A stretch of DNA of 64,000 bases from an uncultured Clostridia bacterium (GTDB lineage Bacteria; Bacillota; Clostridia; Oscillospirales; Acutalibacteraceae), in the NCBI GenBank assembly GCA_946186245.1, contig CAMHMN010000004.1, positions 1 to 64,000 on the forward strand, given 5' to 3'. Below, piece by piece: positions 8,312 through 48,984 of the stretch. The position numbers were made by a program, and so were the translations under genes. The notes beneath the pieces were generated by a model that was given only the letters and a program-made list of their open reading frames with translations, searched no databases and was not told where the DNA came from. Each line of letters begins with the position of its first letter. Position 1 is the first letter of the stretch.

Positions 8312-8340
8312 TTGACATTTGCGCTGAATGATTCTATAAT
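8312..8340 (+). promoter_or_regulatory. Consensus sigma-A promoter (TTGACA-N17-TATAAT), probable dcw promoter
   Basis: ttgaca tttgcgctgaatgattc tataat. Confidence 0.8.
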
Positions 8341-8345
8341 TAAGT

Positions 8346-8396
8346 AAAGTGGGTCGTCAGAACATAAAAATGGGGGATAAGACAATAAAAGTGGGG
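8346..8396 (+). promoter_or_regulatory. Candidate MraZ operator: three (A)AAAnTGGG boxes, 21-bp period
   Basis: AAAGTGGG (TGGG at 8350), AAAATGGGG (8371), AAAAGTGGGG (8392), at the predicted transcription start. Confidence 0.65.
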
Positions 8397-8575
8397 CGAA
8401 AAACAGGAAAAGCAATTCGGAAACCCCAGATAAGTGAAAATCAATCACCTATCTCAAGCGGAATCCGATGCGAATGCTGTGCCGTATTCTTTTTCTTATG
8501 TTATACTATATCTTTTCCCGTTTGTCAAATGAATATGCGTGACGGCTGCTGATTATTCCTTTTTTAAAAATTTTT

Positions 8576-8886
8576 AGTCGATTGTAAAAGTAAAATGAAA
8601 AAAGAAAGCGCGCAGCGTCATAATAAGCGAGCGAATGCGAGCGTGGGGTCCAGGGGGCAAGGCTCCCTGGCCGGTGCAGGGCAGAGCCCTGCTGGGGGTT
8701 GTTTGCGGTGAAACCGCCAACGAGGGGCAAAGCCCCTCGCTGCAACGCACTACGATTGAAAACGGGGTTGGGCGCAACAGATATGGTAAAAGGTAAAAAA
8801 CGCCTTGCCCCAAGCGGAGAAAACGCTCCCTCTTTAAGACTCCATAATCCCGTGTTTTCGATGCTTTTCGAGTTTTGCAATCGGCT
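8576..8886 (+). repeat. MITE-like dispersed element, copy A (311 bp, four-hairpin cassette)
   Basis: TIRs AGTCGATTGTAAAAGT / AGTTTTGCAATCGGCT (inverted); shares blocks with 32866-33063 and 44941-45030. Confidence 0.7.
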
Positions 8887-8936
8887 AATAAAACTATTTT
8901 TCGGAGAATTCTCTGAGTGCAAAGGAGGTCGGATCG

Positions 8937-9356
8937 ATGCTTATAGGCAATGCTGTCCATAGTCTGGATACAAAAGGCAGAATTGTAATACCCGCAAAAT
9001 ACCGGGACGATTTCGGTTCGACAGTCTATGCACTTTACGGCGTCAAGGGCTGTATCAGACTTTACTCCTATGAGCAGTTTATGAAGCACACCGAAAAGCT
9101 GCAGGGCGCGGATATCTCCAAGGATGCTCTCCGGCGCAGGGTTTTCGGTTCGGTGGAGCAGATTTCCCTCGATTCACAGGGGCGTATCCTGCTGTCGGAG
9201 AAGCTGAGGAATAAAGCCGGCATCACCGACAAGGTGCATATGGTCGGTATGTTTGACTGGCTGGAGTTGTGGAAGGAAGAGAATTACGACGAGAAGGAAG
9301 AGGAACTGACTGCCGAGGACGAGATCAGACTGATGGAACAGCTGGGTCTCGCCTGA
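8937..9356 (+). CDS. mraZ: Division/cell wall cluster transcriptional regulator MraZ
   Basis: MLIGNAVHSLDTKGRIVIPAKYRDDFG...DSQGRILLSEKLRNKAGI. Confidence 0.96.
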   Translation: MLIGNAVHSLDTKGRIVIPAKYRDDFGSTVYALYGVKGCIRLYSYEQFMKHTEKLQGADISKDALRRRVFGSVEQISLDSQGRILLSEKLRNKAGITDKVHMVGMFDWLELWKEENYDEKEEELTAEDEIRLMEQLGLA

Positions 9357-9371
9357 TACAAGGAAGACGAG

Positions 9372-10307
9372 GTGCGCGGTTTGGAATTCAATCATATACC
9401 CGTGCTTTTTGAGGAAACGATTGCATCGCTCGGCATAAAGCCGGACGGTATATACATTGACTGTACCGCGGGAGGCGGCAATCACAGCGCGGCGATTCTG
9501 CAGCGTCTGGGCGGGAAGGGCAGGCTTGTCTGTCTTGACCGCGATCCCGACGCGATCGCAGCCGTCACCGAAAGGTTTTCGGGCGACAGCCGGGTCAGCG
9601 TCATACATACCCGATACAGCGCGGTGAGCGAAGTGCTTGCCGGGCTGGGAATAGCAGCGGCTGACGGAGTGCTGATGGACATCGGTGTTTCTTCCCATCA
9701 GGTAGACACTGCCGAGCGCGGTTTCTCCTTTCACAAGGATGCTCCGCTCGATATGCGCATGAGCCAGCAAGGCGCTACCGCCGCCGATCTCTGCAATACC
9801 ATGACATGGCAGCAGCTTGCGGAAATCTTTACAAAGTACGGCGAGGAAAAATTCTCGGTCCGCATAGCCAAGGCCATCTGCTCCGCGAGAGAGGACAAGC
9901 CGGTTGAAACCACCTTCGCGCTTGCCGAAATCATTTCCGGTGCGGTGCCGGCAGCCGCAAAACGCGCAGGCCATCCTGCCAGAAAGGTCTTTCAGGCCCT
10001 GCGGATTGCCGTCAACGACGAGCTGGGCGAGCTGGAAAGAGGACTTCAGGCGGCATTTGACTGCCTGAATCCCGAAGGCAGGCTTTCGGTGATCACCTTT
10101 CATTCGCTCGAAGATCGGATCGTAAAGCAGACAATGGCCAGATGGTGCGAAGGCTGTACCTGTCCGCCGGAGTTTCCGGTCTGTGTGTGCGGCAACAAGC
10201 CCAAGGCACGTCTGCTCCACAAAAAGCCGATCGTGCCTTCTGACGAGGAGCTTGAACGCAATCCCCGCAGCAGAAGCAGCAAACTGAGGACATGCGTCAA
10301 ACTGTGA
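9372..10307 (+). CDS. rsmH: 16S rRNA (cytosine(1402)-N(4))-methyltransferase
   Basis: FNHIPVLFEETIASLGIKPDGIYIDCTAGGGNHSAAIL...LMDIGVSSHQVDTAERGFSF; GTG start. Confidence 0.97.
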   Translation: MRGLEFNHIPVLFEETIASLGIKPDGIYIDCTAGGGNHSAAILQRLGGKGRLVCLDRDPDAIAAVTERFSGDSRVSVIHTRYSAVSEVLAGLGIAAADGVLMDIGVSSHQVDTAERGFSFHKDAPLDMRMSQQGATAADLCNTMTWQQLAEIFTKYGEEKFSVRIAKAICSAREDKPVETTFALAEIISGAVPAAAKRAGHPARKVFQALRIAVNDELGELERGLQAAFDCLNPEGRLSVITFHSLEDRIVKQTMARWCEGCTCPPEFPVCVCGNKPKARLLHKKPIVPSDEELERNPRSRSSKLRTCVKL

Positions 10308-32835: not shown

Positions 32836-32865
32836 TCGGTCATATCGATTTTGAATAAATGATTC

Positions 32866-33063
32866 AGACGATTGTAAAAGAAACAAAAGGAAAAAGCCAG
32901 GGGCAGAGTCCCTGGCTGCAACGCACTGCGAAATAAAACAGGGTTGGGCATAACAGAGACGGTGTTAATCACAGATTTGGTTTACCCCGAGTGGAGAAAA
33001 CTCTCCCTCTTTATGCCTTCAAAATCCTGTGTTTTCGATGTTTATCGAGTTTTGCAATCGGCT
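32866..33063 (+). repeat. MITE-like dispersed element, copy B (198 bp, one hairpin)
   Basis: TIRs AGACGATTGTAAAAGA / AGTTTTGCAATCGGCT; GCCAGGGgcagagtCCCTGGC; near-identical 3' 44 bp to copy A. Confidence 0.7.
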
Positions 33064-33096
33064 AAATATTTGATTGATAAGGAGAAAGGTTCCATA

Positions 33097-34335
33097 ATGT
33101 TGAGTAAAATCGAGATGTATATCGAGAAGTATAAAGATCACCTGTTTTGGACGTTTATGGCCGGATCGTATGGTTGTATGGCGTTTTTGTTCAGTGCGCA
33201 GGCGCTGCGAATCAAGGGAAAGTATTTGTCAGATCTCGATGTTCATTTATCACACGCCATAGAAAGCAGCGGCTCCGGTTATTCCCTGGAAAGTACGTTG
33301 ACGGTCCTGATATATCGGATTTTCGGGAAAAACGCAACCGCCTGCATGATTGGGTTTTCTTTGTTACTTGCGCTCATGGTGGTATTGACGCCTCTTGCGG
33401 TCGCTTCCCTGCTTTCTTTTCTCGATCGCACAGAAAAGGGAACTCCGCTCGGCGTAACACGGAACAGGTTTATCGGACTTTTTTCCATTTATATCGCGCC
33501 TTTGATGATACCGGTTGTCTGGTTCTGGTTCTATAATAACAATTGCAATATCAATGCGTGGCATAATTCCACCTATATGGAAATGAGATTGTTTTCCGTT
33601 ATGGCGCTGTGCTTGTATTTCGTAATTCAGGAAGGGCTGCTGAACGGAAAGAACATCCGTCTTACCTACTGGTCAGCCTTTGCCGCCTGTTTATTTGCGG
33701 CTACATGGTTTAAGCCTTCCTATTTTGTCGGATTTGCGCCTGTGATGGTGATATGGCTTTTGATTGACCTTGTGAAGTCCCGCGGAGATCTGACAAAGAT
33801 CAGAAATCTGTTTTTCTTCGGATGTGCCTGTATTCCGGCGGGATTGATGGTGATATTGCAATACTGGAAACTGTACGGTTCAAGAGAAGATGTGAGTGTG
33901 GTCTTGAATACGGCACAAGACAGTCTGAGAAACAATATCCGGACGGGTCTGTTCCTGATATTGCCTGTGATCATATTTCTTTACAACCGGAAAAAAGTGG
34001 TAAGCGAGTATAAGAAGGGCAACAGGGCATATGTGCAGATCATGGTGCTTTGGGTGATTGAATGGCTTTACGGCAGAATATTCACCGAAGAAGGGAGAAC
34101 CGGAGGGAATTTCGGCTGGGGTGTCAGAATGGCAAATTATCTTGTGGTGGCAGTTTGTGTCAGGCTGTTTTGGATCAACCTGCTCGATGTACTGCAAAAG
34201 AGGAAAGACGGGCAGGCCTTGACAAAAGCGGAGTGCATTTATGTCATCGGAATCGGCGCGGTGCTGCTATGGGAAATGGTCTGCGGATCGTTTTATTTCT
34301 TGTGGCTTCTGACAGGTCGTTCGTATTGGATATGA
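33097..34335 (+). CDS. Polytopic membrane protein, paralog 2 (GT-C-like architecture, function unknown)
   Basis: ORF 32944-34335; MLSKIEMYIEKYKDHLFWTFMA...KYLSDLDVHLSHAIESSGSGYSLESTLTVLIY...NINAWHNSTYMEMRLFSV. Confidence 0.8.
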   Translation: MLSKIEMYIEKYKDHLFWTFMAGSYGCMAFLFSAQALRIKGKYLSDLDVHLSHAIESSGSGYSLESTLTVLIYRIFGKNATACMIGFSLLLALMVVLTPLAVASLLSFLDRTEKGTPLGVTRNRFIGLFSIYIAPLMIPVVWFWFYNNNCNINAWHNSTYMEMRLFSVMALCLYFVIQEGLLNGKNIRLTYWSAFAACLFAATWFKPSYFVGFAPVMVIWLLIDLVKSRGDLTKIRNLFFFGCACIPAGLMVILQYWKLYGSREDVSVVLNTAQDSLRNNIRTGLFLILPVIIFLYNRKKVVSEYKKGNRAYVQIMVLWVIEWLYGRIFTEEGRTGGNFGWGVRMANYLVVAVCVRLFWINLLDVLQKRKDGQALTKAECIYVIGIGAVLLWEMVCGSFYFLWLLTGRSYWI

Positions 34336-44940: not shown

Positions 44941-45030
44941 AGACGAAGAAAAAAGAAAGCGCGCAGCAGAAAAAGGTAAAGCAAAAGATACCCCTTTGCC
45001 CCGAACGAAGAAACACTTACAATTTTGCAA
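44941..45030 (+). repeat. MITE-like dispersed element, copy C (degenerate, ~90 bp, no hairpin cassette)
   Basis: AGACGA..AGAAAAAAGAAAGCGCGCAGC matches copy A 5' block; tttgccccgaacgaagaaacact and ttttgcaa match 3' blocks. Confidence 0.55.
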
Positions 45031-48759: not shown

Positions 48760-48890
48760 CAAAAAACACCCGCGGAACATTTTTGTCTGTCCCGCAGGTT
48801 GATTTTTCTAAAGCAAAGATAGAAAACAAACTGCTGCCTCACATCTGCGAAGCCCGGCAAGTCCGCATAACGCGGATGCCTGTTCAGTAA
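48760..48890 (-). ncRNA. NiCo (czcD motif) cobalt/nickel riboswitch with overlapping intrinsic terminator
   Basis: Minus strand: ACTGAACAGGCA-TCCGC/GCGGA-CTTGCCGGGC...GAGGCAGCAGTTTG...CCTGCGGGACAG; terminator CCTGCGGGACA-gacaaaaa-TGTTCCGCGGG-TGTTTTTT. Confidence 0.88.
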
Positions 48891-48984
48891 ATCATTATGC
48901 AGTTATCATGACAATTATGCGGGAAACGCACCGTTGCATCATGTTAGTTGTAATTAACAGTTTTTTCTCCAACTTGTCGATAAT

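Follow-up and report, generated by a model that had tools for sequence, protein, structure and literature searches.

We describe a family of short, non-coding MITEs in a genus of uncultured Clostridia whose copies lie, in one orientation, at a near-constant distance upstream of the motif GGAG, most often the Shine-Dalgarno sequence of the next gene. Targeting of this motif by the family is strongly supported by the data below. We consider it probable (roughly 0.8) that these are MITEs of an IS family with a DUF772/DDE transposase, which would pick Shine-Dalgarno-type motifs in DNA, cut with an 11-bp stagger and insert the element in sense before ribosome-binding sites. The starting point was a single 64,000-nucleotide stretch of one draft genome (the window). 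Its first-pass annotation missed that the leader position is a rule of the family, shared by ISs with matching ends elsewhere.

The repeat family and its copy in the dcw leader

The features of the window that bear on this analysis, all on the forward strand, are as follows.

8312..8340, +, presumed dcw promoter TTGACA-N17-TATAAT (TTGACA 8312-8317, TATAAT 8335-8340), about 235 bp 5' of the insertion and kept in congeners
8564..8574, +, left 11-bp target duplication of copy A, TTAAAAATTTT, decayed, with 8/11 identity to the right copy
8575..8887, +, MITE copy A, 313 bp, within the dcw (mraZ) leader
8575..8589, +, left terminal inverted repeat (TIR) of copy A, TAGTCGATTGTAAAA; family consensus YAGNCGATTGTAAAA
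8608..8741, +, central GC-rich hairpin module of copy A (8604-8745 in a slightly wider delimitation), found also alone, and inverted within other copies
8816..8819, +, conserved internal GGAG (GGAGAAAA block), 72 nt inside the right end of copy A
8873..8887, +, right TIR of copy A, TTTTGCAATCGGCTA
8888..8898, +, right 11-bp target duplication of copy A, ATAAAACTATT
8903..8906, +, target motif GGAG of copy A, at +15 relative to its right end and distinct from the mraZ Shine-Dalgarno sequence
8921..8928, +, true mraZ Shine-Dalgarno sequence AAAGGAGG, 8 nt 5' of the ATG at 8937
8937..9356, +, mraZ, gene 1 of the dcw cluster, 3' of copy A (Pfam MraZ, 5.9e-26)
32865..33064, +, MITE copy B, 200 bp, with both TIRs
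33081..33084, +, target GGAG of copy B (in AAGGAG), offset +16, which serves as Shine-Dalgarno sequence for a gene with its start at 33097
44941..45030, +, copy C, a decayed family fragment, internally deleted and without recognisable TIRs

Copy A has no coding capacity; it interrupts the dcw leader, in a transcribed region 3' of the presumed promoter and 5' of mraZ. These points agree with the first-pass annotation, and its bounds of 8576-8886 located the element correctly but fell one base short on each side. The gene after mraZ is mraW, at 9372. Copy B proved to be a genuine member, whereas copy C, previously ranked as its equal, is the fragment listed above, placed 3' of a stop codon and 5' of a terminator-like hairpin. 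The hairpin module recurs elsewhere (e.g. in G000 C20, C14 and C36), both alone and inverted in other copies, and so perhaps represents a nested repeat family of its own. Two further features of the window were noted. GTGGGG-type repeats resembling MraZ boxes are found at 8335-8420, 3' of the presumed dcw promoter, and are kept in congeners; a NiCo riboswitch at 48785-48897 on the reverse strand scores above the Rfam gathering score.

A blastn search with positions 8570-8892 gave 45 matches in the window's own draft genome, and pairing of terminal repeats yielded about 20 complete copies there. By the same search program the family was present in 17/17 congeners and in 0/22 genomes of other genera, and family-like sequences in a public collection carry the names of rumen Clostridiales and 'Ruminococcus' MAGs. 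The MITE did not occur in the phage and plasmid collections searched, and the one match among viral contigs looks like fortuitous similarity within a phage gene. We gathered 83 independent TIR-bounded copies from members of the genus, which are rumen Clostridia MAGs. The MITE copies are mostly 180-350 bp long and lack a transposase gene; the TIRs are common to the copies, with outermost bases varying between CAG and TAG. The dispersed, TIR-bearing family proposed at first sight is thus real. The data come mostly from draft MAGs, assemblies that often lose ISs and whose contigs break within the element.

The copies at mraZ and several other loci are lineage-specific insertions, absent from relatives. 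The outline of the mraZ leader is conserved in 17/17 congeners, all of which are without the 313 bp of copy A. Four copies of another genome of the genus, G017 (L355, L358, L361 and L357), have empty orthologous loci in G003 or G016 with one target copy each; the unoccupied L355 site reads ATAAATCCTTTG-GTGCAGGAG, where GTGCAGGAG is the pre-insertion sequence at L128/L355, seen with a single target copy at the empty sites of congeners. Among the 83 copies, exact repeats anchored at the flanks peak at 11 bp, and the flank duplication is identical at 9 or more of 11 positions in 35, compared with 0.4 expected when flanks are paired at random or shuffled. Empty sites and target duplications, both named at the outset as checks on mobility, were therefore found. 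The TA targeting suggested earlier was not borne out: the TA beside copy A belongs to the TIR and many copies begin with CAG, so that the 11-bp duplications and the variable CAG/TAG ends rule out a TA target duplication of the Tc1/mariner or IS630 type.

Spacing and orientation of the insertions

Aligned flanks show a common order to the right of the element, namely the 11-bp duplication, about 3-5 bp, AAGGAG and a start codon. For a set of 59 copies picked by terminal repeats only, with the flank motif not used, GGAG was found at +13 to +18 beyond the right end in 49 (mode 16) and beyond the left end in one (chance expectation 1.4, from the genome GGAG frequency); the excess on the right has a binomial P of about 1e-69. 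The larger set gave 72/83 copies, although the pattern used to collect part of it already contained the motif. Orientation could be assigned to 78 of these 83 by the internal profile, without flank information. A pattern combining right end and motif had 97 matches in 14/18 genomes, while the reversed control had none. The element-GGAG distance varies less (sd 1.8) than the element-ATG distance (sd 2.5), and fresh copies do not differ from decayed ones in this respect. GGAG is missing at +13 to +18 in a few cases (L153, L146, L003).

In most cases the target GGAG serves the next gene, read in sense, as its Shine-Dalgarno sequence, but several copies obey the spacing at motifs that do not have this role. 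Copy A is one of them, with the true mraZ Shine-Dalgarno sequence 20 nt further downstream; several congeners carry CAGGAG or CGGGAG at the place of its target motif. The target of L128 is CAGGAG, over 30 nt ahead of the start codon; that of L118 is GGAG, with the start codon far off; and that of L247 is AAGGAG, which has no gene behind it and points towards the end of a gene that we take, by eye, to be hisF. Such sites favour recognition of a DNA sequence over selection alone. Most insertions are nevertheless at true Shine-Dalgarno sites, and selection thus contributes.

Selection as the whole explanation would require random insertion, followed by loss of insertions in genes or in antisense and persistence of those that spare translation or supply useful leaders. 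Nearly all copies are indeed within gene leaders, and strong RNA folds with paired TIRs might form a closed hairpin that is tolerated just outside the ribosome footprint. Such a process accounts for a minimum distance, but not for the narrow upper limit implied by the small spread, and fresh copies with near-perfect duplications are as tightly placed as old ones. Together with the copies at GGAG motifs other than ribosome-binding sites and the rarity of occupied positions without a motif (e.g. L153), this makes it an unlikely account of the pattern.

It is also quite improbable that the target is a state of transcription or translation (an open complex, an R-loop or a coupled ribosome) rather than a DNA motif. 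Several sites are near promoter-like sequences, the targets are AT-rich and the orientation follows transcription. However, the presumed mraZ promoter is about 235 bp upstream of copy A, L247 presents the motif without a gene, and the register of insertion follows GGAG and not ATG.

The right end and autonomous relatives

The MITE 3' domain carries a nearly invariant GGAGAA block, whose GGAG is 71-74 nt from the right end in 55 of the 63 copies having the motif, and the sequence between this block and the right end is variable. The block recurs in the IS relatives described below, at 72-73 nt in G315, G296 and G017 and at 68-69 nt in Roseburia, Eubacterium eligens and G072, with GGGG in place of GGAG in the IS of pCY360. 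Judging from this pattern, the internal GGAG block is probably a transposase-binding site.

Individual copies have strong predicted RNA folds (z of -4.4 and -5.6). In that of copy A the TIRs can pair, so that the element forms a single closed domain and the Shine-Dalgarno sequence may stay free. A functional leader element (riboswitch-like or a translational regulator), duplicated and retained to control downstream genes, would suit the transcribed orientation, the conserved 3'-domain blocks and the near-fixed Shine-Dalgarno distance, but is very unlikely, since RNAalifold found 0 consensus pairs for the 3' domain in 58 copies, Rfam had no match over the element, the inspected downstream genes are unrelated, the mraZ and other sites are lineage-specific, and the IS right end contains a matching internal GGAG block at a matching spacing.

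A complete IS was located in G315 through a scan for the combination of right end and motif across 295 genomes of the order. It is 1723 bp long, has the left end TAGTCGATTGTAAAA and the right end TTTTACAATCGGCTA, and is followed by GGAG at +16. The gene for its 475-aa transposase begins 137 nt in from the right end and runs leftwards into the interior of the element, in antisense relative to the downstream motif. The protein matches Pfam DUF772 and, weakly, DDE_Tnp_1 (PF01609). A 57% identical relative in G296 (1794 bp) has the same ends and AAGGGAG with GGAG at +15.

Further relatives were found as well. The IS of G072 has 10/11 duplicated bases, then AAGAGGAAC (GAGG) and ATG; the motif is at +20 beside the IS relative in Roseburia sp. 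831b and at +19 beside a right-end remnant in Eubacterium eligens. Plasmid pCY360 of Butyrivibrio proteoclasticus contains two tandem ISs between exact 11-bp duplications ATAAATAAATG, with ATATT-GGAG on the right, GGAG at +16 and then the start of an annotated gene. The tandem copies (L387) are separated by one target copy, and the pCY360 gene table lists no coding genes over them. IS relatives in pCY360 and in a genome of another family thus follow the same landing rule, which is directly testable with the pCY360 IS because it is in a sequenced, named strain. A clear target duplication was not seen at the IS copies in G315, G296 and Roseburia.

The expectation of an autonomous transposase with the same TIRs was confirmed in other genera (G315, G296), while the genus itself yielded a single trace, a transposase-start remnant behind a family right end in G017. 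An intact transposase was not found in the 18 genus genomes searched, drafts of a kind that often lose ISs, and a search of eight genus genomes for autonomous partners of 0.8-4 kb bearing the same TIRs found none (for G003, among the matches listed). The candidates L342 and L335 turned out to be host genes or nested repeats, and L298/L302, with CACTTGATGGTAAAA within an IS, was also rejected. Matching TIRs were absent from 30 PF01609 transposase loci read in the genus. The IS transposase was not found in viral contigs or phages, and no relative was found in the PDB. We infer that such an IS mobilised the MITEs there. The MITE parent was likely an IS of about 1.72-1.79 kb with a DUF772/DDE transposase, distant from IS1182 and with nearly the same ends as the MITEs.

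Proposed mechanism and known systems

In the mechanism that we favour, the transposase would pair the two element ends and meet a Shine-Dalgarno-type purine motif (AAGGAG, core GGAG) in DNA, which it presumably reads itself. A staggered 11-bp cut would be made with the motif about 5 bp beyond it, and the right end would always be placed toward the motif, approximately 16 nt before GGAG. Choice of the motif and the facing right end would together lead to insertion just upstream of the ribosome-binding site in sense orientation, so that the element would join the mRNA leader, for example that of the dcw operon, with the Shine-Dalgarno sequence and the gene left intact. The insertions may also affect expression. 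As a hypothesis, the same transposase domain might read both the target GGAG and the internal GGAG 72 nt inside the element. The fuller scheme is tentative, and we put it at a little under even odds: a single transposase would use the start signal of genes as an attachment site, with one domain binding the internal and the Shine-Dalgarno GGAG and thereby fixing distance and orientation, so that the element becomes a leader of many operons with genes unbroken.

If true, an IS that reads Shine-Dalgarno sequences would find a safe site before almost every gene, which would explain how the MITEs reach tens of copies per genome without gene breakage. Leaders of core operons such as dcw would be rewritten; in G017 the core gene with a rewritten leader is, as we read it by eye, presumably that of glutaminyl-tRNA synthetase. 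The system might also be turned into a tool that places leaders or tags 5' of ribosome-binding sites.

ISs usually choose their targets loosely, by structure or at a single site. The rule described here resembles that of Tn7 at attTn7 in that one motif is recognised, distance and orientation of the insertion are fixed, and the gene is spared. Tn7 uses a dedicated target protein, has one site per genome and makes 5-bp duplications, whereas the present IS has a single gene and generic ribosome-binding sites as targets. The yeast elements Ty1 and Ty3 likewise occupy a harmless niche just upstream of (tRNA) genes; they are retrotransposons guided by Pol III factors and have no homology to the present family.

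The IS1182 family (e.g. IS1272 of Staphylococcus) is the nearest known group, sharing DUF772 and DDE domains and providing the closest NCBIfam model (NF033551), for which the new transposases score 70-81 bits (80.6 and 70.1), far below the cut-off of 270. The targets of IS1272, which it replaces on insertion, are inverted repeats without shared sequence (PMC5678879), in contrast to the present family, which duplicates 11 bp beside GGAG in one orientation. More generally, the palindromic or hairpin targets of some IS1182 members differ from the asymmetric 11 bp plus GGAG seen here. Prokaryotic MITEs such as Correia, RUP, BOX, ERIC and MITEAba12 are likewise short, non-coding, TIR-bounded and multicopy, and some are near genes. 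A 2024 review of prokaryotic MITEs makes no mention of Shine-Dalgarno sequences or ribosome-binding sites (PMC10969869), and we found no precedent in the open-access papers searched for Shine-Dalgarno targeting by transposons. The repeats of pneumococci show enrichment in intervals that separate convergent genes (PMC3049150), a preference that is the reverse of the one observed here.

Several reduced or modified copies were also recorded. Minimal copies of about 55-112 bp with both TIRs (L263, L261, L247, L253, L341) show how little sequence suffices. Right-end-only remnants of about 40-140 bp (L347, L224, L280, L389) are still upstream of Shine-Dalgarno sequences, and another repeat (CCTTCCCTGAAAGGGAAGGTGGCACGAAGTGCCGG) is nested within MITE copies L070 and L076 (G000 C26 and C46). 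In G065, a genome of another family, two loci (L373, L375) have the near-perfect palindrome CTCGATTGTAAAACGCAGTTTTACAATCGGCTA before right ends that are upstream of AAGGAG; these palindrome-bearing right ends perhaps represent another derived family.
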